The position numbers were made by a program, and so were the translations under genes. 64,000 bases of DNA from Muribaculaceae bacterium. Lineage in GTDB: Bacteria; Bacteroidota; Bacteroidia; Bacteroidales; Muribaculaceae. Of the stretch, positions 16,794 through 41,076 are shown piece by piece (position 1 is the first letter of the stretch; every line of letters starts with the position of its first letter). The stretch is from positions 1,505,079 through 1,569,078 of the forward strand of contig JAMPAK010000001.1 in NCBI GenBank assembly GCA_023667285.1. The letters are read 5' to 3'. The notes below the pieces were generated by a model. The model was not told where the DNA came from. It saw only the letters and a program-made list of their open reading frames with translations, and ran no database searches.

Positions 16794-16865
16794 ACCTAAT
16801 AGTAAAAACGAATAAATAAAAGTATTTGAATATGATAATTGACGGATAGAAATGCAATATGACTG

Positions 16866-16873
16866 CAAAATTA
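16866..16873 (-). promoter_or_regulatory. Promoter -7 element of susCD
   Basis: The minus strand reads TAATTTTG, matching TAnnTTTG, 72 bases upstream of the chosen susC start. No -33 TTTG is evident, so an activator may be needed; that last point is inference. Confidence 0.6.
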
Positions 16874-16983
16874 GCACTTTTTTAACGATTATATGGAAGT
16901 ATTTATGTAAAATAATGTTAATTTTGATGTTAAATTCACACCTCTGTCAAGCAAAATGGCTATTTTGGTGACAAAATGACAAT

Positions 16984-26222: not shown

Positions 26223-26230
26223 CAAAGTTA
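26223..26230 (-). promoter_or_regulatory. Promoter -7 element of the porin gene
   Basis: The minus strand reads TAACTTTG, 8 bases before the ATG, giving a leader of only a few bases. At the -33 position (26251-26254) the strand is TTTT, part of the terminator tract of the adjacent small RNA. Confidence 0.7.
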
Positions 26231-26245
26231 CTGAGAAACGGGCAT

Positions 26246-26311
26246 AAAAAAAAATTATCCGTCATCACGACGAATAATCTTCTTACCTTAAATCTAATAC
26301 CATGAAAAACT
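26246..26311 (-). ncRNA. Small RNA copy A, upstream of the porin gene
   Basis: A predicted 65-base transcript with its own consensus promoter. It holds the core TTTTCATGGTATTAGATTT-AAGGT, then a hairpin (26254-26278) of ATTATTCGTC pairing with GACGGATAAT around loop GTGAT, then nine T residues. The same core and a loop of form GTC-G(A/T)GAT-GAC recur at 40965-41034. There is no convincing ORF. Different stem sequences with conserved loop and 5' core point to selection on RNA, not protein. A family of paralogous small RNAs (FopS) is known in Bacteroides; whether this belongs to it I cannot verify. Confidence 0.75.
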
Positions 26312-26315
26312 GATG

Positions 26316-26346
26316 CAAAGGTAGGGCTTTTTTCAATAATGCCAAA
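26316..26346 (-). promoter_or_regulatory. Promoter of small RNA copy A (TTTG-N19-TACCTTTG)
   Basis: On the minus strand TTTG (26343-26346), 19 bases, then TACCTTTG (26316-26323). It fits the consensus and starts transcription about 5 bases before the conserved region. 26347-26512 is AT-rich intergenic DNA in which I see nothing further. Confidence 0.8.
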
Positions 26347-26512
26347 GAATTATGCCAAAAAACACATTTGTTTTAACATTGTTTAATAAATAAGCTACGT
26401 AACTATATTTTTCTTTACACGAGTGGCGTCATTATTTTGACGAAGTCAGGAGTGATTCAGTGAGCAAACGTTTTTTAACTACATGGATGCGTGAGAAGTG
26501 GCGAAAATTCTG

Positions 26513-26520
26513 TAATTTTG
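26513..26520 (+). promoter_or_regulatory. Promoter -7 element of the lipoprotein-pectinesterase operon
   Basis: TAATTTTG matches TAnnTTTG, 35 bases before the ATG at 26556. No TTTG is seen at -33. Confidence 0.65.
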
Positions 26521-26555
26521 TATATTAAATTATTGAAAACACGACAATACCAGAC

Positions 26556-27488
26556 ATGAACAAATTTTTTAGACTCCTTTCACTCGCGGCAATCGTGGGC
26601 GCTATGTCCACATCGTGCATGGACGACAACAAGGAGAACTATCAGGAGGTGATCCTGACCTATGGCGGTGAGCAGTGCTTCAACATAGTCACCGATAAGG
26701 AGACGGGCGAGGAGCTCATCTCTGGCAACCCTAACTACAAGATGACTTTCGAGCAGATTGGGGGCACTCTGAAACTGGAGATCTCAAATGTGCAGTTTGC
26801 CTCGGGGTATTACGGCCTATCCTTCAAACTGCCTACGATGAACTTCACCTATGACACCAATACGGGATATTTCAAAGCGAACGGCAAGGACCTGATCCCC
26901 ACCAATGCTACGGGTTCATACATCTTCAATGATTTCTCGCTGAAGATGGTGCCCACGCGCATAATTGATGAGGCCAATTGTCCGATATATCTCATCAACT
27001 ATACGGTCAATGACAAGTATGACGTCACGGTTATACCGACAACACCAGTGCTTGTCGGCACTACAACCTCGGCCATATATGAGGGTGAGGAACTGTCAGG
27101 TGAGACATTCACACTGGAGAACCGAATTCTCTCGGCCACTGTAGATCCTGTCAAGAAGACTGCCCGCATCGTCATTCCCCAGGCCACGTTTGAGGAGCAG
27201 ATGATGCCACGCAACATCGTGATGAAAAATCTTCCGGTCACCATCAGCAGCAAGGGATTCTCAGTTGAGACTGCTGAGGGGGAGACAATCCAGATCTACA
27301 ATCAGGTTGACAATGCCCTCCCTGACTGGACGGCCACAAATCTGAAGTTTGACTATGATGTGGCCACCGGAAACACCACCCTCACCGCTCACTTCAAACT
27401 ATTCAATCAGGTAGGGATGGACGATCTCATGAAAGAATATGATGTCAAGATTGAGGCCGGATATTTCTTTGATGTCGATGCCAACTAA
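26556..27488 (+). CDS. Lipoprotein of unknown family
   Basis: A 310-residue lipoprotein with signal and lipobox MSTSC (Cys21). The remainder is beta-rich with two similar-looking halves. In each half a strand block ends in a turn of the form YDTNTGYFKANG or YDVATGNTTLTAHF, suggesting duplicated immunoglobulin-like or lipocalin-like domains. I recognise no enzyme motif. It shares a predicted promoter with the pectinesterase 38 bases downstream. A role in binding or presenting the same substrate is inference. Confidence 0.75.
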   Translation: MNKFFRLLSLAAIVGAMSTSCMDDNKENYQEVILTYGGEQCFNIVTDKETGEELISGNPNYKMTFEQIGGTLKLEISNVQFASGYYGLSFKLPTMNFTYDTNTGYFKANGKDLIPTNATGSYIFNDFSLKMVPTRIIDEANCPIYLINYTVNDKYDVTVIPTTPVLVGTTTSAIYEGEELSGETFTLENRILSATVDPVKKTARIVIPQATFEEQMMPRNIVMKNLPVTISSKGFSVETAEGETIQIYNQVDNALPDWTATNLKFDYDVATGNTTLTAHFKLFNQVGMDDLMKEYDVKIEAGYFFDVDAN

Positions 27489-27526
27489 ACCAGAATCACA
27501 TTAATACCATACAACAACACCTTACC

Positions 27527-30500
27527 ATGAGACAGAAATTACTCTGTTTGTCGATGTTGCTCATATGTCTGCTCGGGGGCGCCCGGGCGTGGGCACAGAC
27601 GACATTCAACAACGCTGAAGCGTCGGCGGTCTGGGCTTTCAACTCAGAGAACTTCATGCAGGATGTCACAACGTCGCCCGATGGAGCCATCTCCCAGGCA
27701 AGTTTCGACATCAATGGACAGAACTACACTGGCATCATCAGCACTACGATGTGTCCGGACATCAAGTTTGTGAAGATCAATGCGGCCAATGGCGCCACAG
27801 ACATCATGAAATGGTGTGTCAAGCCGGCCAAGGGTCTGACATTCACGCCTACAAAAATTTCGTTCTATGTGGCTCGCTGCGGTACAGACGGCTCTGTGGG
27901 TTGTGTGAGTGTACAGGGTGAGGTCAACGGCGGCACTCCGATAGAGTTCAGCAAGATCACACCTCACCGCAATAACAAGACTCAGGCCGACGACAAGCAT
28001 GGAAGCGATCCGTCGTACACGGTGCACTATGAGTATACCCTCACCGCTGAGCAGCAACAGCAGCTCACATCGGGCAATGGGTTCAATCTTGTGGTCAACA
28101 ATGGGTTTGCGGCTGACAAGGGTGTGGCCTATTCAGATGTCCGCATCATCGGCAAAGTGAACGGCACCTCTGTCCCCGTGAACAAATATACTCTCACAGC
28201 CAAGGCTAACCCTGAGGGGAGCGCACAGATTACTGTGAATCCCCAACTCGACCAGTATGAGGACGAGACAGTGGTGACGCTGACCGCCACACCTGAGTTC
28301 GGATATCGCTTTGTGAACTGGACGGATGCCTCAGGCAAGGAACTGGGCAATAAGACAACGCTCAACTATACTGTCAAAGCCAACTCAGAGATTACTGCCA
28401 ATCTATCAAAGGTCAACACCTATGAGTTGAAATATAGTGTTGAGGGTGGCGCTAACCCCTATCAGATACAGCCCTCGCCAGCACCCACTGTTGTAGACGG
28501 CAAGATGATGTATGAGGAAGGGATCAAGGTGACACTGACAGCCATCTCCAACGACGTGATGACCTTCACCAACTGGAGCGACGGTCAGAGTTCAAGCGAG
28601 ATAACCTTCACCATGGACAGCAACAAGGAGTATAAAGGCATCTTCTCAGCCGCAGATTTCGTGGCTGCATGGGACTTCTATCTCTCAGGCAACAATGGAC
28701 GTCCAGCTGACTTCTATGCAGAGGACAATGACGCCGTGACACTTGTGCTTCGCGATGAGGCAGGCAACACTATCGGATGGCTCGACAAGAGCCAGGAGGC
28801 AGCCGGAGGCTATGAAGGCGCACCGGCGGCTGTCAACTGGAACACTGAGGGCCTGGGCAAATACTACTGGCAGACCACTGTCAATGCAACCGCCTTCACC
28901 TCAATGAGCGTGAAGGGCTCTATGCTCTACAACTACAATGCCTATTCAAAATATAACGTTGAGGCATCAGTGGATGGCAGCCAGTGGACCAAACTCGGGA
29001 CGGTGACCCTTGAGGGAGCCAAGTCATGGACGACCTACAACTTCACCCTTCCCTCCTCGTTCGACAACAAGGCAAGCGTGTCCATCCGCTGGATTGCCGA
29101 CAAGTCATCGAGTGTCAATGGCACACAGAGCAACAATGACGGCATAGCGCTTGGCGCAGTCTATATCTTCGGCACACCTCAACTCATCAACGACGGCACG
29201 GCTCCCGTGCTTGTAAGCCAGGTGCCTGTTGAGGGGACCGACAACGCCTCCATCGCAGGCAAGATTGTGCTCAACTTCGATGAGAAGGTGAAAGTGAAGA
29301 GCGGTGTCAAGGGTAATCTCAGCGGCATCGAGCTCGAGTCCTCAGTGACAGGCAAGACAGTAATGTTCAACTATTCCAACCTCTCCTATGGAACGAACTA
29401 CACATTCACACTCCCGGCAGGAGCGGTGATGGACCTCTGTGACAATGCCACTAACCAGGAGATAAAGATTTCATTCAAGACACGCACCAAACCCGCAGTG
29501 TCAAGATTCCTCTATGATTTCGTTGTGCCCGACGACGGAACGCTCAACGATGCAATAGCGGCTTCAGAGGCTCGCACTGATGCCTCAAAGCGTTTCCGCA
29601 TATTTATAAAGAACGGCAACTACAAGCTGGCATCATCAGCTACAGCGACCAAGACTGGCAGCGACGGGAAATCTTATCCTGACCCCACTACCTATATCAA
29701 TAAGGGGAATGTCTCCTTTATCGGTGAGAGCATGGATGGCGTAGTCATCAGCAATGATATCGTCGATGTCTATGTGGACGGTCAGTATGGGAAGGCACAT
29801 GTGCTTGAAGGGATTGGCAACGGCGATGTCCTGAGAATCAACAAGAGCGCCACAAACTGCTACTTCCAGAACCTGACGCTGAAGTCGTCCATGGGAGATT
29901 CGCGAGGCCGCGACATCGTGCTCAACGACAATTCAGACAGGACAATCTTCAAGGATGCATGTCTATGGGCATATCAGGACACTTATGTGTCAAACAACAA
30001 GAACGGCAAGTTCTACTTTGAGGGAGGTGTCCTCCGCGGCACCACTGACTTCCTCTGCGGCAAGGGAGACGTCTACTATCAGGGGGTTAAACTCCAGCAA
30101 GCAGACACCAAGGGTTATATCTGCGCACCTTCAGACGCGCGCAAATATGGCTATGTGTTTAACGAGTGTGAGATTGTAGGCGAGAAGAGCGGGACAGACG
30201 GCAAGTTCACTTTGGGACGTCCCTGGGGCGAAGGTGTCCCCTCAGCCCTCTTCATCAACACCAAGATGACCTGCAAGCCCTCAGCCGCCGGATGGAGCGA
30301 GATGTCAGACGGGTGGCCGGCACGTTTCGCAGAGTATAACTCGACCACAGCGGGAGGCACAGTAATCGACCTAAAGGACCGCAAGAAAACTTTCGGCAAT
30401 GGCCACACCAACAATCCTATCCTCGCCAAGGAGGAGGCCGACGCTCTCACCATAGCCAATGTGATGGGGGATGGGGATGACTGGGATCCTACACTTGCCA

Positions 30501-30901
30501 CAGAGCAGGCTCCCGAGCCCTCGAATGTAGTGACCGACGGTGTCACCATGACATGGGACAACTCCGACTATGCACTCCTCTGGGCCATCTGCATGAACGG
30601 CAAGGTAATCGACTTCACTACCAATCCCTACTATGTCTTCAACACGACAATGGATGCATCAGCGGCCACGGCATATTCGGTACGCGCAGCCAACGAGATG
30701 GGCGGCCTGGGCAAAGCAATCTCTGCTAAGAGCGGCACACCATCGTCAATCACCTCAACGATTGCTGACAAGGAAGTTCTCTCCACTGCATACTATAGCC
30801 TGCAGGGAATCCGCGTGACTGAAGAGACCAAGGGAATCATCATCAAGGTGGTGACCTATACAGACGGCTCCACCTCGACAACCAAGACTCTGGTGAAGTG
30901 A
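27527..30901 (+). CDS. Large modular pectinesterase (CE8) with C-terminal sorting-like segment
   Basis: A 1124-residue secreted protein predicted to remove methyl esters from pectin. Signal peptide 1-23; an N-terminal beta-rich region; two InlB-like B-repeats around 225-380 (TPEFGYRFVNWTDASGKEL, MTFTNWSDGQ); a carbohydrate-binding-like module around 385-550; a Big_5-like domain from about 560; and a CE8 beta-helix from about 660. CE8 catalytic residues are present: Gln817-Asp818 (YQDTY), Asp841 (GTTDFLCG) and Arg898 (LGRPW). The region near 1010-1085 looks like fibronectin type III. The last 40 residues (YYSLQGIRV, ending TKTLVK) resemble Bacteroidetes type IX sorting domains. Domain edges are estimates. 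Confidence 0.9.
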   Translation: MRQKLLCLSMLLICLLGGARAWAQTTFNNAEASAVWAFNSENFMQDVTTSPDGAISQASFDINGQNYTGIISTTMCPDIKFVKINAANGATDIMKWCVKPAKGLTFTPTKISFYVARCGTDGSVGCVSVQGEVNGGTPIEFSKITPHRNNKTQADDKHGSDPSYTVHYEYTLTAEQQQQLTSGNGFNLVVNNGFAADKGVAYSDVRIIGKVNGTSVPVNKYTLTAKANPEGSAQITVNPQLDQYEDETVVTLTATPEFGYRFVNWTDASGKELGNKTTLNYTVKANSEITANLSKVNTYELKYSVEGGANPYQIQPSPAPTVVDGKMMYEEGIKVTLTAISNDVMTFTNWSDGQSSSEITFTMDSNKEYKGIFSAADFVAAWDFYLSGNNGRPADFYAEDNDAVTLVLRDEAGNTIGWLDKSQEAAGGYEGAPAAVNWNTEGLGKYYWQTTVNATAFTSMSVKGSMLYNYNAYSKYNVEASVDGSQWTKLGTVTLEGAKSWTTYNFTLPSSFDNKASVSIRWIADKSSSVNGTQSNNDGIALGAVYIFGTPQLINDGTAPVLVSQVPVEGTDNASIAGKIVLNFDEKVKVKSGVKGNLSGIELESSVTGKTVMFNYSNLSYGTNYTFTLPAGAVMDLCDNATNQEIKISFKTRTKPAVSRFLYDFVVPDDGTLNDAIAASEARTDASKRFRIFIKNGNYKLASSATATKTGSDGKSYPDPTTYINKGNVSFIGESMDGVVISNDIVDVYVDGQYGKAHVLEGIGNGDVLRINKSATNCYFQNLTLKSSMGDSRGRDIVLNDNSDRTIFKDACLWAYQDTYVSNNKNGKFYFEGGVLRGTTDFLCGKGDVYYQGVKLQQADTKGYICAPSDARKYGYVFNECEIVGEKSGTDGKFTLGRPWGEGVPSALFINTKMTCKPSAAGWSEMSDGWPARFAEYNSTTAGGTVIDLKDRKKTFGNGHTNNPILAKEEADALTIANVMGDGDDWDPTLATEQAPEPSNVVTDGVTMTWDNSDYALLWAICMNGKVIDFTTNPYYVFNTTMDASAATAYSVRAANEMGGLGKAISAKSGTPSSITSTIADKEVLSTAYYSLQGIRVTEETKGIIIKVVTYTDGSTSTTKTLVK

Positions 30902-30929
30902 CCTGAGGTCTGACAAACGGACAATAAGA

Positions 30930-30965
30930 AATCCCGCCCTGCCGCATTGTAGACAGGGCGGGATT
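30930..30965. terminator. Hairpin terminator between converging pectinesterase and topA operons
   Basis: AATCCCGCCCTG and CAGGGCGGGATT form a perfect 12-bp stem around a 12-base loop. Short T-rich stretches follow on both strands, clearer on the minus strand, so it probably serves both converging operons. Confidence 0.75.
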
Positions 30966-30991
30966 CCTTATCCTATCGTTTAAGAGTCTGG

Positions 30992-31261
30992 TCAGAATTT
31001 GAACCAGGGAGTAAAAATGCGTATCGTATTGCCGACAAGGCGCATTATCCTCGACTTGATGTCGTCATGATTCCGTGAAAAGGACATGGCTGAGATGACA
31101 TGGCCGGCTGCACCACCCAGATGCGGCTCCCGGTCGAATCTAACAGACGCTGAACCTCTGTCAAGACGCTTAACCATTCGGAACATGACATGCTCGAGAA
31201 GACCCTCAGGGATACGGTCGTCGAATTCAGGCAAAAGAGGGATTTTCCTTTGAGCCTTCAT
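30992..31261 (-). CDS. Small hypothetical protein after rluA
   Basis: An 89-residue reading frame whose ATG (31261) lies 3 bases after the rluA stop. It is basic, has no signal peptide or membrane segment, and I recognise no family. Its position, tightly placed behind rluA and ended just before a terminator, and codon use like its neighbours support it as a real gene. An alternative TTG start at 31267 would overlap rluA. Confidence 0.5.
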   Translation of the reverse strand: MKAQRKIPLLPEFDDRIPEGLLEHVMFRMVKRLDRGSASVRFDREPHLGGAAGHVISAMSFSRNHDDIKSRIMRLVGNTIRIFTPWFKF

Positions 31262-31263
31262 GG

Positions 31264-32208
31264 TCAATTGCGGGCGCCTCCGGAAACCATTTTCAAGAAT
31301 GAGGCAGGGATTGGGGTTGAGAAGTTCATATCCTTGCGCGTCATGGGATGGACGAAGCGGAGTGTCTGTGCATGGAGAGCCATGCGGTGTATTGGTGATG
31401 ATCCGGCGCCATAGCGGCGGTCTCCTGAGATGGGATGGCCAAGATCCTTCATGTGGACACGTATCTGGTTCTTACGTCCGGTGTCGAGCTCAACCTCCAT
31501 GAGAGAGTATCCCTTGGCGCTCTTGAGTGTCCGATAACGTGTCACCGCGAGCTGTCCCTCGCCGGGCTTGTCCGTTGAATAGACCTCATATCGGGAGTTC
31601 TCGGCCAGATAACTGCGCACCTCTCCTTCGGCCGGGTCAGGCTCACCCTCGACCACTGCAAGATACTTGCGTGAGAGCACCATGTTGTTCCAGTTGTGCT
31701 GCAGCCGGTTCTTGGCCTCCTCAGACTTAGCAAACACCATCAGACCTGATGTGTCGCGGTCAAGTCGGTGGACAATGAAAATCTTGTTTCGAGGATCTTT
31801 CCATTTCAGATAGTCCTTCAGGATGCTGTATGCCGTCCCGTCGCTCACCTTATCGTTGCCCATGGAGAGGAGTCCATAACCCTTGTTGACTACAATGATG
31901 TCATCATCCTCATAGACAATCTTGAGCCTGCGGTTATAAAACACGCGGAACTCGCGCGTAAGGTTGGCCTTCACCTCATCGCCAGGGGCGAGGGGTGTGT
32001 CAAACTGTGTCACCGGAATGCCGTTGACTGCTATCTGGTGGTGGGCAAGGAGATTCTTGACAGCCGTGCGCTTGCGCTGTGGCATGGACTCGAAGAGAAA
32101 CTCCAGGAGGGGCTTCTCATCTGTCGCATGATATGTCTCGATGACATCAGGCTTGAAAGGGTTGCGCTCGGCACCCGGTTTGGTGTTATATATCTTACGT
32201 GGCGACAT
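31264..32208 (-). CDS. RluA-family pseudouridine synthase
   Basis: A 314-residue enzyme that isomerises uridine to pseudouridine in RNA. An N-terminal S4-type RNA-binding domain (about 40-85, TAVKNLLAHHQIAVNG) precedes the catalytic domain with HRLDRDTSG at 147-155 (Asp150 catalytic) and GRKNQIRVHM. It overlaps the topA stop by one base, so translation is probably coupled. Which RNA site is modified cannot be told. Confidence 0.93.
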   Translation of the reverse strand: MSPRKIYNTKPGAERNPFKPDVIETYHATDEKPLLEFLFESMPQRKRTAVKNLLAHHQIAVNGIPVTQFDTPLAPGDEVKANLTREFRVFYNRRLKIVYEDDDIIVVNKGYGLLSMGNDKVSDGTAYSILKDYLKWKDPRNKIFIVHRLDRDTSGLMVFAKSEEAKNRLQHNWNNMVLSRKYLAVVEGEPDPAEGEVRSYLAENSRYEVYSTDKPGEGQLAVTRYRTLKSAKGYSLMEVELDTGRKNQIRVHMKDLGHPISGDRRYGAGSSPIHRMALHAQTLRFVHPMTRKDMNFSTPIPASFLKMVSGGARN

Positions 32209-34529
32209 TACTTGCGTGTGCGTTTGGGTTTCTTAGGGGCTGCGTCCTGAGCGGCTATTATCTGTTTCACCTCCTCCAGAGTGAGGGCAGAGGGGTCCTC
32301 GACGGTCTTAGGAATCTTATAGTTCGACTTGTTGTAAGAGATGTAGACACCATAGCGGCCATTGAGGATGCTGACATCAGGATCGTCAGTGAATGTCTTG
32401 ACAACCTTGTTAGCCTCGGCCTGACGCTTGGCTTCGATAAGCCCAATGGCCTCCTCAATGGTTATGGATGAGGGGGACATGGACTTTGGAATGCTCACGA
32501 ACTTGCCGTCGTGGCGTATGTAGGGGCCGAAACGTCCGATGGCGGCTGTCACCACCTTATCCTCATATGTTCCGACCTGACGAGGGAGATCGAAGAGTTT
32601 GAGAGCCTCCTCAAGAGTGATGTCGAAGACGCTCTGGTCCTTACGCAGTGAGGCGAAACGAGGTTTCTCCTCAGCATCGGCCGATCCAATCTGGGCGATG
32701 GGGCCAAAACGTCCAATCTTGACATAGACTGGCTCACCGGTCTTGGGATCGTTACCGAGCAGACGCTCACCGACTTTGCGCTCAGTGCGGCTCTCGTTGG
32801 CCTTCTCGACCTCAGGATGGAAGAGTGTGTAGAATGTGTTGATCTCATTCTTCCAGTTGGCATCGCCCTCAGCAATGCGGTCAAACTTGGCCTCCATCCC
32901 GGCTGTGAAGTCATAGTCGAGGATATCGGGAAAATGCTCGGTTAGAAATTCATTGACAATCACGCCGGTGTCTGTAGGGATGAGTTTTCCCTTATCGGCG
33001 CCTGTGTTCTCAGAGCGGACAGTGTCTGTGATCTTCCCCTTTGAGTCGAGGGTCATCACATCATAGTCTCGCTTGACACCTGCCTTATCCCCTTTGACAA
33101 TATACTCGCGGTTCTGGATGGTCGAGATAGTTGGTGCATATGTCGACGGACGGCCTATGCCCAGTTCTTCCATCTTCTTGACGAGCGAGGCCTCAGTGTA
33201 GCGCGGCGGAGCCTGTGTGAAGCGCTCTGTTGCGGTGATGTCTCCCAGGGATAGGGCCTCGCCAATCTTCATGGGAGGGAGTGTGGCCTCGCCCGGGAGG
33301 GTCTCGTTCTCATCATCTGTCCCCTCTAGATATAGCCGGAGGAAACCGTCAAACTTCACGACCTCGCCTGAGGCAGTGAAATGTTCCTTGCGGCCGTCTA
33401 CAAAGATCTCGACAGTGGTCTTCTCAAGTTCTGCATCGGCCATCTGAGAGGCCATGGTGCGGAGGCGTATGAGACGATATAGTTTTTTCTCACGGTCAGT
33501 GCCGTCGATTGTCTCGCGGTCAATATATGTGGGTCGGATGGCCTCGTGAGCCTCCTGAGCGCCCTTGGAAGATGTGTGGTACTTGCGCACCTTCAGATAC
33601 TTCTCGCCAAGCTCGTTCTTGATGAGGTCAGAGGTAGTCCCGATGGCAAGCGATGAGAGATTGAGTGAGTCAGTACGCATGTATGTGATGTAGCCATCCT
33701 CATAGAGGCGCTGGGCTATCATCATGGTCTGAGACACTGAGAAGCCGAGCTTGCGACCGGCCTCCTGCTGAAGAGTGGAGGTGGTGAAAGGGGGGGCCGG
33801 TGATTTCTTAAGCGGCTTGACGGTGATGTCGCCCACTTTGAATGTGGCCTTTGAGCAAGCCTCGAGGAATGAGCGGGCGCTCTCAGCGTCTGGGAGACGG
33901 CGTGAGAGCTCGGCATGGAGCGGGGCTCCGCCTGGAAGTTCGAATCGGGCTGTCACTCTGTAATATGGCTCGGACGTGAAGGAGTTTATCTCATTCTCTC
34001 GGTCGACAATCAGACGCACGGCCACAGACTGGACACGCCCGGCTGAGAGGGATGGCCTGATTTTTTTCCACAGCACGGGGGAGAGTTCGAAGCCTACGAG
34101 ACGATCCAACACACGACGGGCCTGCTGCGCGTCAACAAGATTGATGTCGATGTCGCGCGGATTCTCAATGGCATGGAGGATGGCGTTTTTCGTAATCTCA
34201 TGGAAGACAATGCGGCGGGTCTTCTCGGGCTTGAGTCCAAGCACCTCAAAGAGGTGCCAGGCAATGGCCTCACCCTCACGGTCCTCATCAGAAGCGAGCC
34301 ATACGATGTCAGCGCTCTTGGCGGCTTTCTTCAAGTCAGCCACAAGCGACTTCTTTTCAGCGGGTATTTCATAGACCGGCTCAAAATCTCCCTCACCCTT
34401 GATGGAGAGATCCTTCTTGCCTAAATCGCGGATATGCCCGTAACTGGACATCACCTTATAGTCCTTGCCGAGAAACTTTTCAATAGTCTTTGCCTTGGCG
34501 GGAGACTCTACTATAACGAGATTCTTCAT
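32208..34529 (-). CDS. topA: DNA topoisomerase I
   Basis: A 773-residue type IA topoisomerase that relaxes negative supercoils. The TOPRIM start is VESPAKAKTIEKFLG, the acidic DEDREGEA motif follows, and the active-site Tyr is about 283 in YITYMRTDS. Instead of zinc-ribbon cysteines, the C-terminus has several Toprim_C-type repeats (VKIGRFGPIAQIG, AAIGRFGPYIRHDG, ILNGRYGVYISYN), as usual in Bacteroidetes, and ends in a Lys/Arg tail. Confidence 0.97.
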   Translation of the reverse strand: MKNLVIVESPAKAKTIEKFLGKDYKVMSSYGHIRDLGKKDLSIKGEGDFEPVYEIPAEKKSLVADLKKAAKSADIVWLASDEDREGEAIAWHLFEVLGLKPEKTRRIVFHEITKNAILHAIENPRDIDINLVDAQQARRVLDRLVGFELSPVLWKKIRPSLSAGRVQSVAVRLIVDRENEINSFTSEPYYRVTARFELPGGAPLHAELSRRLPDAESARSFLEACSKATFKVGDITVKPLKKSPAPPFTTSTLQQEAGRKLGFSVSQTMMIAQRLYEDGYITYMRTDSLNLSSLAIGTTSDLIKNELGEKYLKVRKYHTSSKGAQEAHEAIRPTYIDRETIDGTDREKKLYRLIRLRTMASQMADAELEKTTVEIFVDGRKEHFTASGEVVKFDGFLRLYLEGTDDENETLPGEATLPPMKIGEALSLGDITATERFTQAPPRYTEASLVKKMEELGIGRPSTYAPTISTIQNREYIVKGDKAGVKRDYDVMTLDSKGKITDTVRSENTGADKGKLIPTDTGVIVNEFLTEHFPDILDYDFTAGMEAKFDRIAEGDANWKNEINTFYTLFHPEVEKANESRTERKVGERLLGNDPKTGEPVYVKIGRFGPIAQIGSADAEEKPRFASLRKDQSVFDITLEEALKLFDLPRQVGTYEDKVVTAAIGRFGPYIRHDGKFVSIPKSMSPSSITIEEAIGLIEAKRQAEANKVVKTFTDDPDVSILNGRYGVYISYNKSNYKIPKTVEDPSALTLEEVKQIIAAQDAAPKKPKRTRK

Positions 34530-34593
34530 AAATTGTGCTGTATGTGCATGCGCCGGATAGCCTTGTCAGGGGGCCAATTTGCTTTTCAGTCGG

Positions 34594-34601
34594 CAAAGTT
34601 A
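34594..34601 (-). promoter_or_regulatory. Promoter -7 element of topA
   Basis: The minus strand reads TAACTTTG, 65 bases before the ATG. A TTTG lies at 34625-34628, but with a long 23-base spacer. Confidence 0.65.
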
Positions 34602-34669
34602 GCGAAAAACCGCCAACTAATCACCAAAATTTCAACAAAAACAATCCGTCAGATGTTCGATGACACCTC

Positions 34670-35446
34670 TTATATATAACCAACGATGGAGTAGACTATA
34701 TTTCCAATGATTTCGTTGAATATTCCCTCCCACTGGACAGCATTGTCCCACCGGGGATAGAAATCTCTGTGGCTCAGGGCATCTCTCTGAGGTGGGACGG
34801 TGACGGGATAAGGGACAGGATTCATCCCGACACGCTTGAAACAACTCATGGAGCGCTTCATGTGGATGGCCGAGGTGACGAGCAGACAGTCATCGCCGTC
34901 AATCCCGAGGGAATCGAGCATCTCTTTAGAGTATACGGCATTCTCGCGTGTGTTGATGGACTTCTGGTCGATGAGCAGGAGTGAGTCAGGGACACCGAAT
35001 GTGCTCATGTATGCCCTGAAGGCCGGGGCATTGTCGTGGCCACCGGAAGTAATGTTGCAGCAGGCGTCGCCTGAGATGAGAAGCCGCTTGACACGTCCCT
35101 CCTTCAGGAGTCTGACGGCCTCCCAGAGGCGGTCGCCGTTGTCGCCTATGAAGACGAGACCTCCTGTCTCAGGGTTCAATGACGAGAAGCCGCCAAGCAC
35201 TATGGCTGTGTCATATGTATGACTCTTTTGGATCTCGGGGACTGTATAAGGGCCGATGTAAGCGCGCCTGGCCCATTCGAGGAAAAGAGGGTTGGTGAAG
35301 AGGAGAAACACCACGGCGGCTGCCACGAGAAGCGCACACCTCAACACGCGCTTCCTGACAAGGAATCCCGCTATAAGCAATCCTGCCGTCCATGTGATGG
35401 GCGACAGGATGAAGAATTTGACAAACTGGGCTATTTCAAAAAACAT
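34670..35446 (-). CDS. YdcF/SanA-like (DUF218) membrane protein
   Basis: A 258-residue protein with two N-terminal membrane helices and a DUF218 domain (AIVLGGFSSLN, RLLISGDACC, SINTRENAVYSKEML, LLVTSAIHMKRS). Relatives such as ElyC and SanA are linked to envelope integrity and lipid-carrier metabolism in E. coli. It starts 3 bases after nth and is last in pheS-nth-ydcF. No terminator is visible behind it; a separate topA promoter lies in the following gap. Confidence 0.85.
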   Translation of the reverse strand: MFFEIAQFVKFFILSPITWTAGLLIAGFLVRKRVLRCALLVAAAVVFLLFTNPLFLEWARRAYIGPYTVPEIQKSHTYDTAIVLGGFSSLNPETGGLVFIGDNGDRLWEAVRLLKEGRVKRLLISGDACCNITSGGHDNAPAFRAYMSTFGVPDSLLLIDQKSINTRENAVYSKEMLDSLGIDGDDCLLVTSAIHMKRSMSCFKRVGMNPVPYPVTVPPQRDALSHRDFYPRWDNAVQWEGIFNEIIGNIVYSIVGYI

Positions 35447-35449
35447 TTT

Positions 35450-36100
35450 TCACTTGGGGCTTTTCGAGGCTTTGCTGTAGTATCTACACACGGATGTGAG
35501 GCCGCAGTTAAGGCAGTCAGGTCGGCGCGCCTTGCATACATACCGCCCGTGGAGGATGAGCCAGTGGTGAGCCTTGGGGATGAGTTCCTCGGGGATATTA
35601 CGCACGAGCGCTTTCTCTGTGGACAGCGGTGTCTTGGAGTTTGTGGTCAGTCCAATGCGCTCACTGACGCGAAAGACATGGGTGTCCACAGCCATAGCGG
35701 CGCGGTCGTAGACGACAGCGAGAATCACATTAGCAGTCTTGCGCCCCACACCCGGAAGTCTCATGAGGGAGTCGATGTCTGATGGCACCTCTCCACCAAA
35801 CTCTTCGACGAGCATACGCGCCATTCCGGCGAGGGAACGGGCCTTATTGTTGGGGTATGAGACAGATTTTATATAAGGGAATATCTCCCTGTCAGAGACG
35901 GCTGCCATTGACTGAGGCGTGGGAAATGCCTCGAACAATGGGGGTGTGACGATGTTGACGCGCTTGTCAGTGCACTGTGCGGAGAGTATCACAGCGACAA
36001 GGAGATGGAATGGGGAGTCGTAGTGAAGTTCTGTCTCGGCTACAGGCATGGCGTGGCCGAACCATTCCAGCACGCGGCTGTATCGTTCCTTGACGGTCAT
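35450..36100 (-). CDS. nth: Endonuclease III
   Basis: A 216-residue base-excision repair glycosylase/lyase for oxidised pyrimidines. The helix-hairpin-helix LPGVGRKTANVIL holds the catalytic Lys121, Asp139 follows in AVDTHVFR, and the C-terminal iron-sulphur cluster Cys pattern (C-x6-C-x2-C-x5-C) is intact near 191-207. It is 21 bases after pheS and 3 bases before ydcF. Confidence 0.96.
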   Translation of the reverse strand: MTVKERYSRVLEWFGHAMPVAETELHYDSPFHLLVAVILSAQCTDKRVNIVTPPLFEAFPTPQSMAAVSDREIFPYIKSVSYPNNKARSLAGMARMLVEEFGGEVPSDIDSLMRLPGVGRKTANVILAVVYDRAAMAVDTHVFRVSERIGLTTNSKTPLSTEKALVRNIPEELIPKAHHWLILHGRYVCKARRPDCLNCGLTSVCRYYSKASKSPK

Positions 36101-36121
36101 CTCTGTCTACGTGAGTCTAAA

Positions 36122-37141
36122 TCAGTGGGCCGCTGTGAACTGTCGGAGGAAGCGCACATCGTTCTCCGAGAACATACGGAGATCCTTGACCTGATATTTA
36201 AGGTTTGTGATGCGCTCAACGCCCATTCCGAGGGCAAAGCCTGAATATTTCTTAGAGTCAATTCCACATGCCTCGAGGACATTGGGATCCACCATTCCGC
36301 AGCCCAGAATCTCTACCCAGCCTGTGTGTTTGCAGAAACTGCACCCTTTTCCGCCACAGAGATTGCATGAGATGTCCATCTCAGCTGAAGGCTCGGTGAA
36401 GGGGAAGTAACTGGGGCGGAGACGTATCTTGGTGTCGGGGCCGAACATCTCGCGGGCAAAGTAGAGAAGCGTCTGGCGCAAGTCGGCAAACGAGACATTC
36501 TCAGCCACATATAGTCCTTCGACCTGGTGGAAGAAGCAGTGGGCGCGGGCTGTGATGGCCTCATTGCGATATACGCGGCCGGGACAGAGGACACGGATGG
36601 GCGGCTGGGTTTTCTCCATGACACGCGCCTGAACGGATGATGTGTGGGAGCGGAGAAGCACCTCGGGGTTGCGCTGGATGAAGAAGGTGTCCTGCATGTC
36701 GCGTGCGGGATGGTCCTCGGCAAAGTTGAGGGCTGAGAAGACATGCCAGTCGTCTTCAATCTCAGGGCCTTCTGCAATGGTGAAGCCGAGGCGTGAGAAT
36801 ATGGCTACAATCTCTTCTCTGACAAGTGATAGAGGATGGCGTGTCCCGAGGGGGAATGGGATGGCTGTACGTGTGAGGTCGAGGTCTGAGTCGATGGTAT
36901 CGGCATTCTCGAGGGCCTCACGGAGGGCAGCGAGCCGCTCAGTGGCGAGTTCTTTGAGCTCGTTGAGTTTCTGACCCAACTCGCGTTTCTGCTCGGCAGG
37001 CACCGAACGGAAATCCTGCATGAGCGCGGGGATGGCGCCCTTCTTGCTGAGATATTTTATGCGGAGGGCCTCCACCTCCTGGACGTTGGCCGCGGAGAGG
37101 GTCTCTATCTCGGCCTTGAGTTGATTTATCTTGTCAATCAT
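36122..37141 (-). CDS. pheS: Phenylalanyl-tRNA synthetase alpha subunit
   Basis: A 339-residue class II synthetase subunit. An N-terminal coiled coil (INQLKAEIETLSAANVQEVEALR) is followed by the catalytic domain with motif 2 (RVLCPGRVYRNEAITARAHCFFHQVEG), FPFTEPSAEMD and GCGMVDPNVL, and motif 3 (FALGMGVERI). A partial Cys cluster (CNLCGGKGCSFCKHTG) is common in this family. pheT is not adjacent, as is usual in Bacteroidales. Confidence 0.96.
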   Translation of the reverse strand: MIDKINQLKAEIETLSAANVQEVEALRIKYLSKKGAIPALMQDFRSVPAEQKRELGQKLNELKELATERLAALREALENADTIDSDLDLTRTAIPFPLGTRHPLSLVREEIVAIFSRLGFTIAEGPEIEDDWHVFSALNFAEDHPARDMQDTFFIQRNPEVLLRSHTSSVQARVMEKTQPPIRVLCPGRVYRNEAITARAHCFFHQVEGLYVAENVSFADLRQTLLYFAREMFGPDTKIRLRPSYFPFTEPSAEMDISCNLCGGKGCSFCKHTGWVEILGCGMVDPNVLEACGIDSKKYSGFALGMGVERITNLKYQVKDLRMFSENDVRFLRQFTAAH

Positions 37142-37164
37142 AAGGATTCTGTGCTTTCAGAGTG

Positions 37165-37172
37165 CAAAGTTA
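37165..37172 (-). promoter_or_regulatory. Promoter -7 element of pheS
   Basis: The minus strand reads TAACTTTG, 23 bases before the ATG and 12 bases beyond the end of lgt, so a -33 element would lie inside the lgt coding region. Confidence 0.65.
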
Positions 37173-37183
37173 GTGAATTTCCG

Positions 37184-38038
37184 TCATTTTTTAGCCGGTT
37201 CGTCGGCAAAACGGTTTGGAAAATCTATCTTCTGGCGTGGATGGCTCATGGCATACCACACGAGGATACAGCCGGCTAGGATGAAGGGGATGCTGAGCCA
37301 CTGGCCCATGTTGAGTGTCATGGTCTGCTCAAACTCAACCTGAGGGTTCTTTATAAATTCTATCAGGAACCTCGGAAGGAAGATGCCTATGAAGAAGACG
37401 CCGAATATCAAGCCGGGCCGTTCCTCGGCATTTTTCTTCCAGTACATCCACATCAGCAGGGCGAAGAGGGCAAAGTAGCACAGGGCCTCATAGATCTGTG
37501 TGGGGTGGCATGCCTGACCTAGGTAGAGTTCGTGCCACTCGCGCGAGCGCACAAACATGAAGCCCCATGGGAGTGTGGTGGCGTGGCCGAATATCTCGCT
37601 GTTGGCCAGATTGCCCAGACGGATGAGTCCGCCCACCAGGGCTATGGGGATGACGAGGCGGTCGAAGGTCCAGAGGGGATTGCGCTTGGTGGTGATGAGC
37701 GAGTATAGAATCACACCCAAAATGATGCCGATGGTGCCTCCATGACTTGCCAGGCCGCCGTGCCAGACATAGAGTATCTCAATGGGGTTCTGGCTGTATT
37801 GGTCCCACTCATAGAACAGCACATGTCCCAGACGGGCTCCAATGATGGTGCCGGCCACGGTCCACAATAACAGCACTCCAAGCCAACGCTCGGGCGCGCC
37901 CTCATGGCGATATATGCGCGACTCAATCTCGTAGCCGACGAGAAAACCCACCATGAAGGCGAGGCTATACCAGCGGATGGCAATGGGGCCGATGTGAAAC
38001 CACACGGGGTCTGCGTTCCAGATGATGTAATCCAGCAT
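37184..38038 (-). CDS. lgt: Prolipoprotein diacylglyceryl transferase
   Basis: A 284-residue inner-membrane enzyme with about seven helices that attaches diacylglycerol to the lipobox Cys of lipoprotein precursors. Signature regions are YVWHGGLASHGGTIG and the invariant Arg and Asn in GLIRLGNLANSEIFG. Many predicted lipoproteins in this window would be its substrates. It has its own promoter, divergent from the DUF695 gene. Confidence 0.95.
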   Translation of the reverse strand: MLDYIIWNADPVWFHIGPIAIRWYSLAFMVGFLVGYEIESRIYRHEGAPERWLGVLLLWTVAGTIIGARLGHVLFYEWDQYSQNPIEILYVWHGGLASHGGTIGIILGVILYSLITTKRNPLWTFDRLVIPIALVGGLIRLGNLANSEIFGHATTLPWGFMFVRSREWHELYLGQACHPTQIYEALCYFALFALLMWMYWKKNAEERPGLIFGVFFIGIFLPRFLIEFIKNPQVEFEQTMTLNMGQWLSIPFILAGCILVWYAMSHPRQKIDFPNRFADEPAKK

Positions 38039-38073
38039 TGTGAGAATGGTAACAGTTTAGGGGTTTAAGGTCA

Positions 38074-38105
38074 CAAAATTACTTCAATTATGGGTCAATG
38101 TCAAA
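38074..38105 (-). promoter_or_regulatory. Promoter of lgt (TTTG-N20-TAATTTTG)
   Basis: On the minus strand TTTG (38102-38105), 20 bases, then TAATTTTG (38074-38081): full consensus. The start codon is 35 bases downstream. The -33 element lies within the spacer of the opposing DUF695 promoter. Confidence 0.8.
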
Positions 38106-38114
38106 AAACTTAAG

Positions 38115-38122
38115 TAATTTTG
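38115..38122 (+). promoter_or_regulatory. Promoter -7 element of the DUF695 gene
   Basis: TAATTTTG, 26 bases before the ATG at 38149. The -33 position (38091-38094) does not hold TTTG. It sets the start: an in-frame ATG at 38098 lies upstream of the transcription start. Confidence 0.65.
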
Positions 38123-38148
38123 CGAAAATTAACAACCACAGACAGACA

Positions 38149-38592
38149 ATGGACACAGATACAGGCATCTGGTGGACTGCTCCCGCTGAGAGCGAGGAGA
38201 CAGGTCGCACCATACTCGTGACGGGACGCAAGGATATAAGCAAATTCAGGTCCAACCCCCGCTTCAACATCCGTGTGGAGGTGACATGGAAATATGACTC
38301 CCCCACCCCTTCAGGAATGCCGTCAGAGGCGGAGGCTGAGGAGATGGAGGCTGTGCAGGAGTCTCTGATGAAGGAATTCAGGAAGGATCCGGTGGCTGTC
38401 TTGACGGGTATTTTCACCGGCGACGGCAAGAGGGACTGGGTTTTCTACACGCTGTCGACCCACATCTTCGGCCGCAAACTCAACGAGGTGCTTGCTCCGT
38501 TCCGCCTGCTCCCCATAACGGTCTATTGCGAGAATGACCCGGACTGGAAGGAGTATGATGAGATGGCCGAGGCTGAGATAAAGATGGATTAA
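38149..38592 (+). CDS. DUF695-family protein
   Basis: A 147-residue soluble protein. The second half has the DUF695 pattern of DWVFYTLSTHIFGRKLNEVL followed by LPITVYCENDPDWKEYDEM, a region also seen in some multidomain cytoplasmic proteins. Function is unknown. It starts with MDTDTGIWW, which fits the predicted promoter. Its stop codon overlaps that of the histidine kinase on the other strand: both are read from the same TTAA at 38589-38592. Confidence 0.8.
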   Translation: MDTDTGIWWTAPAESEETGRTILVTGRKDISKFRSNPRFNIRVEVTWKYDSPTPSGMPSEAEAEEMEAVQESLMKEFRKDPVAVLTGIFTGDGKRDWVFYTLSTHIFGRKLNEVLAPFRLLPITVYCENDPDWKEYDEMAEAEIKMD

Positions 38593-40049
38593 TCGCCCGT
38601 CCACTTGGGGAGGGAGAAAATGAACTCGAGGCCTCCGGTTGAGCGGTTGTGGACAGAGATTGTGCCGCCGTGAGTGGTGATGGTGCTCTTGATGATGGAG
38701 AGACCGAGGCCGGTGCCTCCCTGCTTGCGCGAACGTCCGGTGTCCACACGATAGAAGCGCTCGAAGAGGTGAGGGATATGCTCATCGGCCACACCTGAAC
38801 CGTCGTCATAGAAGGCGAACACATAGAAGCGGTCGTTCTCAGAGATGAGTTTCAGGCCTATCTTTGTTCCGCCTGAATACATGGCTGCGTTGCGTATGAG
38901 GCCACATATCATTCCCTGGATCAGGCCCGGGTTGCCCGACACATTGCAGTCGAGAGGGATGTCGTAGGTGAACTCCATTGAGCCGGCCATGCGGTTGACA
39001 TCCATATCATAGTCAATCTGAAACACAAGGTCGTACATATCCACCTTTGTGACGGCAATCTTGTCGCCTCCGTTCTCGAGGCGAGTCATTGTGGAGACAT
39101 CGTTGAGAAGGTTGGAGAGACGCTCCACATTTGTCAACATCCTCTGGAGAAAACGTTTGCGGGTCTCCTCATCCATGTCAGGGTCGCTTAGGATTGACTC
39201 GAGATAGCCCCTGATGATGCCGACGGGGGTCTTGATCTCATGGTTGATATTGTTGGTCATCTGGCGCGTCACGCGAGCCTTTTCCTCAAAGGCATGCACG
39301 GCGGCCTTGCGCTCCTTCTTGATCTGCTCTATGGCTGCGACACGCTCGCGATAGAGTGTGATGATCTCGCGCGAGATATCGCCGAGCTCGTTCTTGGGGA
39401 ACTCATTTATGCCGGTGAACCGGCTTCCGCTCACGGCCCTGTAGACGAAGTCTCTGAGCAGACGGACATTACGCGCCAACATACGGGTGAAGTAGAAGGT
39501 GACGAGGAGCGTCAGCACCATACAGCCTATGATGACGAGCCAGACGGTGGTGTCGATGCTCATGGCGTCGTCGATTTTCTCGCTATATGGGATGCCTGTC
39601 ACAACCTTTATCCGGCCGTCGGGACTGATGGCTGAGGCGAGTAGATAAACGTTGCCATCGCTGCTGCGCTGGACGTAGCATGGCTGACCGTTGCTGTCGT
39701 TGATGACGCGGACTGTATTTGAGGGGTCGGGGGAGAAGGAGAGGGGGACACCTAAGGAATATCTAAGCATGCCGTCGTCGGCATAGACTGACATTCGCGC
39801 TCCGTCAAACTGGGTTCCCTGATAGAAGTCGGAGATGGTCGACATGAACTGCCGCGGGTCCTGGTCACGCTCGTATGAGCGTATGATGTGGCGGTTAATG
39901 TTGTTGAGACGCCATGCAATAGTCTCGGTGCGGTAGTCAGCCTCACGTTTATACTGATACCACACAATCACCCCGAACACCAGACACAGCACTGTGGCTA
40001 TGGGGATGAATAATTGCCAATGGAAATTAATCCTTCTCTTTAAATCCAT
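38589..40049 (-). CDS. Membrane sensor histidine kinase
   Basis: A 486-residue sensor: membrane helix at about 12-30, periplasmic domain of about 140 residues, second helix near 180 (LVIIGCMVLTLLVTFYFTRML), HAMP-like linker, HisKA dimerisation helix with the phosphorylated His in NNINHEIKTPVGI, and HATPase_c with N-box IRNAAMYSG, DDGSGVADEHIPHLFERFYR and GGTGLGLSI. It overlaps the response regulator gene by 23 bases. The signal is unknown. Confidence 0.94.
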   Translation of the reverse strand: MDLKRRINFHWQLFIPIATVLCLVFGVIVWYQYKREADYRTETIAWRLNNINRHIIRSYERDQDPRQFMSTISDFYQGTQFDGARMSVYADDGMLRYSLGVPLSFSPDPSNTVRVINDSNGQPCYVQRSSDGNVYLLASAISPDGRIKVVTGIPYSEKIDDAMSIDTTVWLVIIGCMVLTLLVTFYFTRMLARNVRLLRDFVYRAVSGSRFTGINEFPKNELGDISREIITLYRERVAAIEQIKKERKAAVHAFEEKARVTRQMTNNINHEIKTPVGIIRGYLESILSDPDMDEETRKRFLQRMLTNVERLSNLLNDVSTMTRLENGGDKIAVTKVDMYDLVFQIDYDMDVNRMAGSMEFTYDIPLDCNVSGNPGLIQGMICGLIRNAAMYSGGTKIGLKLISENDRFYVFAFYDDGSGVADEHIPHLFERFYRVDTGRSRKQGGTGLGLSIIKSTITTHGGTISVHNRSTGGLEFIFSLPKWTGD

Positions 40050-40755
40050 AGCCGAACCCCTGGCGTGTCTCTATGTTGTTGCCATAGACACCTATCTTCT
40101 TGCGGAGGCGTGTGATGTTCGTGTCGATGGTGCGGGTGGTGACGATGACGTCGTCGGCCCAGACACGGCGGATGATCTCCTGGCGCGAGTAGATGCGGTT
40201 GCGGTGGGTAAGGAAGAAATACAGTATCTCAAACTCAGTCTTGGTGAGAGCCACGCGCTCGCCGTCGAGATAGACCTCCTTCTGGTTAGGGTCGATTGAG
40301 AGACCCTTATACTCCACCCTAGCCTCAAGAGGCTCTGAGTCAGCCTGCTCGGCGACCAGTTCGACTCCGGCAGCCTTTCGGGCCATCTGTGTGCGGCGCA
40401 GCACGGCATTGATTCTGGCTATCACCTCGCTCATTTTGAAGGGCTTGGTTATGTAGTCGTCGGCACCGATGTTGAGGCCCATTACAGTGTCGTCCTCGCC
40501 GTTGAGGGCTGAGCAGAATATAATTGGGGCGTCCTCGGTGCGCTCGTTGTTGCGGACTCGCTTTGCAAAGTCAAAGCCGCTGAGATTCTCCATCATGATG
40601 TCTACGACAAAAAGGTCGTAGACGCTGAGGTCTTTCTCAAGAGCCTCCTCCGCACTGTAGGCAGTGTCTACCTCATAACCCTCCTTTCGCAGGTTGTATT
40701 TAAGTATTTCGCAAATCGACTCTTCGTCGTCGATGATAAGGAGTCTTGTACTCAT
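40027..40755 (-). CDS. OmpR/PhoB-family response regulator
   Basis: A 242-residue transcription factor: receiver domain with acidic pair Asp9-Asp10, phosphorylation site Asp52 (FVVDIMM) and Lys104 (ITKPF), then a winged-helix DNA-binding domain (ALTKTEFEILYFFLTHRNRIYSRQEIIRRVW, TIDTNITRLRKKIG). It is transcribed ahead of, and overlaps, its kinase gene. The layout is PhoB-like. The AT-rich repeats upstream at 40882-40908 could be its own binding site. Confidence 0.94.
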   Translation of the reverse strand: MSTRLLIIDDEESICEILKYNLRKEGYEVDTAYSAEEALEKDLSVYDLFVVDIMMENLSGFDFAKRVRNNERTEDAPIIFCSALNGEDDTVMGLNIGADDYITKPFKMSEVIARINAVLRRTQMARKAAGVELVAEQADSEPLEARVEYKGLSIDPNQKEVYLDGERVALTKTEFEILYFFLTHRNRIYSRQEIIRRVWADDVIVTTRTIDTNITRLRKKIGVYGNNIETRQGFGYGFKEKD

Positions 40756-40881
40756 GGATGCTCTGTGATTTTATGATTGGCAGGCTCGGTCCGAAGTGTC
40801 ACAGGATTGTAACACATTGAGCCATAAGGGTTGTTTTTGATATCGGGGGTAAAATTACAAAGAAATTCCTGACCTCTATAG

Positions 40882-40908
40882 TTAACAGATGTTAAAATTA
40901 ATTTTAAC
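40882..40908. promoter_or_regulatory. Candidate operator: repeated TTAAC half-sites and nested palindromes
   Basis: TTAACA-GA-TGTTAA (40882-40895) and TTAAAATTAATTTTAA (40892-40907) are perfect palindromes sharing bases. Read as direct repeats, TTAAC, TTAAA and TTAAC begin at 40882, 40892 and 40904, about one DNA turn apart, as for OmpR-family sites. It lies 127 bases upstream of the regulator gene and 57 bases before small RNA copy B, so it could serve either. Confidence 0.45.
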
Positions 40909-40964
40909 CCTGAACTTTTCTTCAGGCCCGGGAGTTATAGAGATGTAGTTACTATTATTTGCAC

Positions 40965-41034
40965 TGTGTTTTCATGGTATTAGATTAAGGTTAAAGAACA
41001 ACAGGGTTGTCGAGATGACAACCCTGTTGTTTTT
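40965..41034 (+). ncRNA. Small RNA copy B, between mfd and the response regulator
   Basis: A predicted transcript of about 70 bases with the same core as copy A (TTTTCATGGTATTAGATT-AAGGT). It is followed by a perfect 14-bp hairpin, ACAACAGGGTTGTC with GACAACCCTGTTGT around loop GAGAT (40998-41030), and TTTT. The distance from an upstream TTTG to the ATGG of the core is the same as in copy A, although the -7 element here (TATTATTTG) has one extra base. It runs opposite to both neighbouring genes. Its hairpin could also end mfd transcription. The rest of 40756-40964 holds the candidate operator and nothing else that I recognise. Confidence 0.75.
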
Positions 41035-41076
41035 GTATACAGTCAGAATTCAGTTGACTGCGGCCTTTTTCACCTA

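Follow-up and report, generated by a model that had tools for sequence, protein, structure and literature searches.

The DNA analysed here (the window) is a stretch of 64,000 nucleotides (nt) from a Muribaculaceae bacterium (assembly GCA_023667285.1, contig JAMPAK010000001.1, positions 1,505,079 to 1,569,078 of the forward strand). It contains two genes for the small RNA FopS, each of about 70 nt. The first, on the minus strand, lies before a Porin_10 gene; the second, on the plus strand, is divergent from a two-component operon (38589-40755) encoding a PhoB-type response regulator and a histidine kinase (Table 1). A preliminary description, made from the letters alone, had pointed out two sites with a shared core, 26246-26311 (minus) and 40965-41034 (plus), placed one copy before the porin gene and the other opposite the two-component operon, and raised the possibility of FopS. 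All of these points were confirmed.

Two FopS genes and their structure

Both sites matched the FopS model RF04319 above its gathering score of 56 (cmscan, Rfam 15). A weak match to Ms_IGR-8 fell below the cut-off of that family and was disregarded. The 18-base core TTTTCATGGTATTAGATT is exact in both copies. Nothing else in the window comes within 3 mismatches of it, and none of 100 shuffles contained it. It presumably contains the seed R1 of the literature. In both folds the first 28 nt are unpaired and include the conserved 5' seed, which is exact in each copy. The core is followed by a hairpin and a T run, and the terminators end both RNAs at about 70 nt. That the two sites are FopS small RNA genes is practically certain.

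Some details of the preliminary description need correction. The distance from the TTTG element to the core, given as 12 bases, is 7 in both copies. The AAGGT said to follow the core does so in the first copy, and the second is one T short before it. The stems were described as completely different, but three apical pairs (GTC/GAC) are common to both; the two stems differ because the copies belong to two classes with class-specific stems.

Table 1 Features of the FopS loci in the window (positions counted from its first letter) and two further matches in the genome
Feature	Position	Strand	Basis
FopS copy, class B, with unpaired 5' seed region and a hairpin terminator	26245..26312	-	RF04319 59.9 bits, model positions 1-71; fold z -3.42
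FopS core TTTTCATGGTATTAGATT, class-B copy	26291..26308	-	exact match
Class-B terminator hairpin, apex GTC-GTGAT-GAC	26248..26284	-	fold; apex statistics
TACCTTTG (TAccTTTG), presumed -7 box of sigma-ABfr type; TTTG at 26343-26346 as -33 box	26316..26323	-	read from sequence
ATTAAACAATGTTAA, 10-bp direct repeat with one GTTAA, candidate regulator site, class-B copy	26373..26387	-	family statistics
Porin_10 gene, with its own TAACTTTG at 26223-26230	24235..26214	-	PF14121 593.6 bits
FopS copy, class D	40966..41036	+	RF04319 56.8 bits; fold z -6.84
FopS core TTTTCATGGTATTAGATT, class-D copy	40969..40986	+	exact match
Class-D terminator hairpin, apex GTC-GAGAT-GAC	40994..41034	+	fold; stem covaries within class D
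TAGTTACTATTATTTG, conserved class-D promoter block with TA-N3-TTTG box	40946..40961	+	alignment of 45 loci; pattern search
GAAC-N18-GTTATA, promoter-like pair	40912..40939	+	conserved in class D; pattern match
GTTAACAGATGTTAA, candidate PhoB-type site: 10-bp direct repeat in the interval from FopS to the regulator gene	40881..40895	+	alignment, repeat counts
Response regulator, PhoB type	40027..40755	-	NF053854 (Bacteroidota PhoB) 314.7 bits, cut-off 270
Histidine kinase partner	38589..40049	-	best model NF053855 (Bacteroidota PhoR) 336 bits, below cut-off 500
SusC-type transporter gene, candidate target	13551..16877	-	TIGR04056 774.7 bits; pairing score 17.5, lowest of five SusC
Sixth copy, class E, core CATAGTATTAGATTAAGATAAAGG (L006/L339)	own genome C11:1607725-1607801	+	RF04319 53.3 bits
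Weak seventh match (L007)	own genome C11:1430355-1430428		RF04319 31.6 bits

Copies and classes in the genome and its relatives

The genome to which the window belongs (the own genome) has seven RF04319 matches at E ≤ 1, five of them above the cut-off. This threshold is lax, as the unrelated controls B. subtilis and M. jannaschii also match, and the weakest matches mean little. The sixth match, of class E, is under the cut-off and has promoter-like boxes and a terminator; it lies upstream of a glycogen debranching gene. A different-looking gene follows the class-E copy in genome G025 (locus L116), and the link to glycogen thus comes from one genome. The seventh, L007, has a very long hairpin with a GTGA loop and neither promoter nor the GTTAA element described below. 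It is probably no gene, perhaps a terminator carrying a seed fragment.

FopS is widespread in the family. At E ≤ 0.01, RF04319 matched in 48 of 61 genomes including the own genome, among them all 37 Muribaculaceae. In an even sample of the phylum with stricter filters, 7 of 395 genomes matched, the own genome included. The core pattern with up to 1 mismatch occurs in 3 to 14 copies in 36 of the 37 Muribaculaceae genomes (the exception, G027, has none at this stringency), and its reversed control had no match in any of the 37. Thirteen stretches of viral contigs (L302-L314) also carry an exact core of 26 bases, and the FopS paper mentions one phage (PMC11697453). Tandem copies of the class-D type, about 205-230 bases apart, occur in L115, L129 and L183, with three each in L115 and L129. 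On contig C107 of genome G014, three cores are spaced 1.6-2.9 kb.

The loci examined held 165 core matches (up to 2 mismatches), of which 164 were parsed. The copies were taken from among the matches listed, about a dozen of which, mostly at contig ends, were left out, and class counts per genome are therefore incomplete. The 130 Muribaculaceae copies fall into A-like (46), B (33), B/C (3), C (10), D (30) and E (3), with five unclassed; the window copies at 26245 and 40966 belong to B and D, respectively. Linkage to neighbouring genes is conserved in both classes. A Porin_10 homolog follows 91-205 bases downstream in 15 of the 33 class-B copies. Class-D FopS stands divergent from the PhoB-type regulator, 127-239 bases upstream, in 45 of 80 homologous loci. 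An assignment of this regulator to RprY was rejected (NCBIfam RprY 134.8 bits, cut-off 370).

The class-D stem covaries. Thirty-seven distinct stems, aligned on the loop, were obtained from 43 loci and the window; the remaining two of the 45 copies linked to the regulator were too short for this. At stem position 8, 20 stems have C-G, nine A-T and seven G-C, so that 36 of 37 are paired, compared to a mean of 16.5 and a maximum of 23 under permutation. Positions 9 (28/37), 10 (24/37) and 13 (28/37) also exceed the permutation maximum, pairing at positions 5, 11 and 12 does not, and positions 1 to 4, 6, 7 and 14 vary too little for a covariation test. Among the parsed copies, the class-B stem varies little between species. 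Together with the further copies in relatives, the class-D covariation supports the earlier proposal that the two sites represent a family of regulatory RNAs.

The apex reads GTC-GNGA(Y)-GAC almost without exception, and each of the four bases occurs at N. In about 1 Mb of Muribaculaceae DNA, a GNGA-type apex was present in 45 of 45 filtered FopS entries but in 4 of 81 other terminator-like entries, where the entries passing the filter are fewer than the copies examined and one site may yield more than one entry. The shared loop already noticed in the preliminary description is therefore real and not a general habit of terminators. It is not universal: among 34 copies of other families, 15 carry a different loop, for instance AGCG. 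With a common seed but unlike promoters and stem classes, the copies could pass different signals to a single output.

Upstream elements and candidate regulators

The box at 26316-26323 is a presumed sigma-ABfr motif. The corresponding box of the second copy is TAttaTTTG, with a 3-base spacer, compared to TAccTTTG in the first. Sigma-ABfr is the promoter type named for FopS in the FopS paper (PMC11697453).

Further upstream, an oriented GTTAA lies 50-90 bases before the core in 108 of 122 copies, compared to 16 of 83 gene promoters (p = 1.5e-24, uncorrected for relatedness; the copies of relatives are not independent, and p-values thus overstate). The set of 122 omits the five unclassed copies, two of which have GTTAA, and three copies with under 200 bases upstream. 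The element was found in 20 of 110 promoter-like background sites (26 with a wider stretch), shuffled segments had it in 15.4 of 122 on average and in 25 at most, and the reverse, TTAAC, was seen in 16. By class, GTTAA is present in 42/46 A, 30/30 B, 12/13 C with B/C, 21/30 D and 3/3 E copies, and at all six copies of the own genome having a promoter. Its position is tightly confined. Of the 46 A copies, 26 have it at -70; class B mostly has -69 or -79 and class C -70 or -80, and class-D copies carry it from -75 to -78 and from -85 to -88. Pairs of GTTAA with a 10-base offset are common in D, where 18 were counted, and less so in the other classes. Allowing one degenerate half, the 10-bp repeat occurs in 51 of 122 copies vs 3 of 110 background sites; in a recheck of the background rate by simulation, repeats appeared at 0.09 per shuffle, with 1 match in 20 simulations.

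The repeat is also found at the regulator gene itself. Before the regulator gene in the 35 loci without FopS, it was present in one orientation in 17 and in the other in one. With looser halves the 10-base spacing dominates there, often as TTTAAC-N4-TTTAAC. Such an arrangement recalls the Pho boxes, tandem direct repeats in promoters: the cyanobacterial PhoB relative SphR binds repeats of CTTAACCT (PMC1906773), which resemble TTTAAC-N4-TTTAAC. The period is 10 bp here and 11 in Pho boxes, where 3-bp linkers join boxes of 8 bp; no linked phosphate gene was seen among the neighbours checked, and the sites described here are predicted ones.

The GTTAA element probably binds a regulator of the OmpR/PhoB type, and the PhoB-type regulator beside class D appears to be the best candidate. 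The element, the repeat before the regulator gene, the PhoB match and the likeness to SphR sites together suggest that this neighbour may bind the repeats and control FopS, a possibility which falls somewhat short of probable. Several observations weigh against it. No FopS was seen upstream of the regulator in 35 of 80 loci, one of which is too short for a decision. Perfect or near-perfect direct repeats are confined to those 51 copies out of 122, and the orientation of the repeat relative to FopS is opposite to that relative to the regulator gene. In the 35 FopS-less loci, a single GTTAA is common on the regulator's own strand too (22, vs 33 in the orientation of the repeat). No phosphate family was seen among 20 proteins next to GTTAA repeats at 16 of 29 own-genome sites, a check of neighbours without a dedicated search for phosphate genes; a phosphate regulon thus gained no support from the neighbours checked.

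Conceivably, GTTAA is bound by some other regulator or acts as a general upstream element, and its presence near the PhoB-type gene reflects the control of that gene alone. We regard this as a serious possibility, if not quite an even one. OmpR-type regulators other than PhoB also bind tandem direct repeats, and the own genome has 29 perfect GTTAA repeats (10 for the reversed pattern) beside diverse genes. Binding of tandem direct repeats by both PhoB and SphR (PMC1906773) is likewise compatible with a different binder. A general element fits less well with the gene promoters, where the 16 of 83 with GTTAA show no dominant position, and the FopS-less regulator loci keep the repeat mainly in one orientation (17/35 vs 1/35).

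A palindrome, ATGTT-N4-AACAT (up to 2 mismatches), was observed in 19 of 26 class-B copies of the genus and 7 of 110 background sites. It also occurs upstream of FopS in other families (examples overall are L161, L164, L040 and L184), often near -38, -57 or -71. It represents a second candidate regulator site, and some of its matches overlap the GTTAA element.

In the regulator-linked class-D promoters (45 loci), the order is GTTAA-N4/5-GTTAA, GAAC-N17/18-GTT and a block like ATARTTACTATATTTGCACTGTG. A third match of the class-D block, TAGTTACTATATTTG at C11:162007-162021 of the own genome, coincides with none of the seven FopS matches. The GAAC-N18-GTTATA pair resembles a promoter of the extracytoplasmic function (ECF) sigma type. 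Class D could accordingly be driven by an ECF sigma factor through GAAC-N17/18-GTT, as are the envelope-stress small RNAs of E. coli, with the regulator irrelevant. This is unlikely, even though GAAC and GTT are kept at near-constant spacing in most of the 45 copies and persist even in the inner copies of tandem groups, where the GTTAA repeat is lost, and GAACYTTTN{10,16}GTTATA matched once in the window and never in 100 shuffles. In 13 of 14 genomes of other families, GAACYTTTN{12,15}GTTNTA was not above its reversed control, and no wider regulon is apparent there; within the genus, part of the pattern excess is FopS itself. No autoregulated ECF gene was found, the genes behind non-FopS matches being listed as reading frames only. 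The TTTG box near the RNA start is also kept, and the ECF reading depends on a resemblance in promoter architecture.

Candidate targets, RbpB and the proposed circuit

In B. thetaiotaomicron, FopS represses susC translation, and RbpB, an RRM_1 protein, binds FopS and relieves this repression (PMC11697453). The SusC model matches 12 times in the own genome, five times at full length and above the cut-off. Ungapped pairing with FopS nt 1-28 was scored for 134 start regions drawn from a subset of the own-genome DNA rather than the whole genome, with the window SusC added by hand as the fifth. The mean score was 21.4 for the five SusC starts vs 15.1 for the 129 others (U test p = 0.0006), and the difference was reached by none of 150 shuffled seeds. 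Predicted pairing is therefore biased towards SusC in this small sample. The best SusC site, in contig C22, contains AATCTAAAACCATG, 13 of whose 14 bases are complementary to the seed, and ends 5 bases before the presumed start. Two opposed GTTAA repeats were also noted upstream of this gene (C22:11273-11341, L342/L343).

The case for SusC has its weaknesses. Besides the restriction of the starts to a DNA subset, the bias weakens when set against 32 ATGAAN starts (p = 0.006), the best score over the 134 starts is not exceptional (reached by 23 of 300 shuffled seeds), and SusC accounts for two of the five highest-scoring starts. A ranking by duplex energy was less favourable, placing SusC genes 3rd, 12th, 29th and 103rd among 141, where the start of the last was mis-set and the run incomplete; it was replaced by the ungapped score as long internal loops dominated. 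Long exact complements in targets were likewise not supported: with up to 3 mismatches, the full seed complement AATCTAATACCATGAAAAA gave the seven FopS matches and one other place. Since this search found a single non-FopS place, pairing must be partial. On balance, FopS likely represses SusC in Muribaculaceae.

RbpB seems to play no part in this family. The own genome (93.8% complete) has no RRM_1 match, and such matches were found in 1 of 37 genomes of the Muribaculaceae sample and in 2 of 247 of a larger one, where the positive control Bacteroides ihuae matches. None of 193 high-quality Muribaculaceae genomes (at least 90% complete, at most 5% contaminated) has one. The two exceptions among the 247 are L344 and L345 (G470, G030), and neither is in the high-quality set. 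In other families, 8 of 24 genomes have RRM_1 without an RF04319 match (E ≤ 0.01), and G057 has FopS and no RRM_1. As the RNA is present in 37 of 37 sampled family genomes while RRM_1 is missing from nearly all, FopS does not appear to need its RbpB partner, and Muribaculaceae FopS seems to work without it.

Alternatively, FopS of Muribaculaceae may rely on a substitute RNA-binding protein, perhaps one that reads the GNGA apex. This would account for an apex kept while the lower stem changes, in a family where RRM_1 is nearly missing. We consider it rather improbable: an antagonist such as RbpB can be lost without a replacement being required, 15 of the 34 copies outside the family have a different apex, and no substitute is known from this analysis, which included no search aimed at other RNA-binding proteins. 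That the sites are mere similar terminators or decayed repeats without RNA function, as the weak match L007 with neither promoter nor GTTAA element might suggest, is extremely improbable given a seed kept across classes, conserved promoter blocks, a covarying stem and positions conserved across species.

FopS has already been published (PMC11697453), and the copies described here agree with RF04319 of B. thetaiotaomicron in seed, length, single-stranded 5' part, terminator and the presence of several copies per genome. They differ in number (5 above the cut-off in the own genome, 14 in B. thetaiotaomicron), in the near-absence of RRM_1 from the family, in the GTTAA element and in the class-D promoter. 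Muribaculaceae FopS also forms several sequence classes, whereas no strong sub-diversification except a few seed changes is reported for B. thetaiotaomicron (PMC11697453). GibS (BTnc035) shares the R1 seed with FopS (PMC11697453). In B. thetaiotaomicron, gibS adjoins a glycogen operon, and the own class-E copy lies upstream of the glycogen debranching gene. GibS measures about 145 nt and carries promoter motif 2 and an additional seed, R2; the two copies in the window, of other classes, are set apart from it by their length of about 70 nt, and by R2 and promoter motif 2 through description only.

MicA/RybB and OmrA/B of E. coli and the pneumococcal csRNAs are comparable as small RNAs that are paralogous or driven by stress, and several of them reduce outer-membrane proteins. 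MicA/RybB are driven by sigma-E, OmrA/B and the csRNAs by two-component systems. The comparison was made by description rather than by sequence, and the driver here is only predicted. OmrA/B and the csRNAs are named in the FopS paper, which speaks of an unknown transcriptional regulator for FopS and of an RbpB-FopS circuit likely to be widespread in gut Bacteroidota (PMC11697453). Among the papers checked, including PMC12119571, none was found that joins FopS with Muribaculaceae. The near-absence of RRM_1, the sequence classes with their linkages, the GTTAA element and the SusC pairing bias, the last in a small sample, seem to be new.

Taken together, these results suggest the following circuit, in which transcription, repression and regulator binding are predicted from sequence. 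The exposed 5' seed UUUUCAUGGUAUUAGAUU would pair with mRNAs around the start codon, chiefly those of SusC-type transporters, and block their translation, while a terminator hairpin with the kept GNGA apex would end the RNA. In Muribaculaceae this would operate independently of RbpB. Most of the promoters examined would receive an OmpR/PhoB-type regulator at the GTTAA element, often a 10-bp direct repeat. As an overall explanation, FopS genes with RbpB-free repression of SusC and a regulator acting at GTTAA are likely. Tentatively, and with more doubt than confidence, FopS could further be seen as the RbpB-free regulon of one PhoB-type two-component system, which would regulate itself through the TTTAAC repeats, switch on the divergent class D and also, by way of this element in most paralogs, the other copies, which jointly would lower SusC, with an ECF-type promoter added in class D.

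Muribaculaceae are dominant in the mouse gut. Membership in FopS is firm, and the regulatory circuit, with a specific regulator and a specific DNA site, is a testable proposal, e.g., in the cultivated Duncaniella muris. If it is true, one stress signal could silence many glycan-uptake systems at once.

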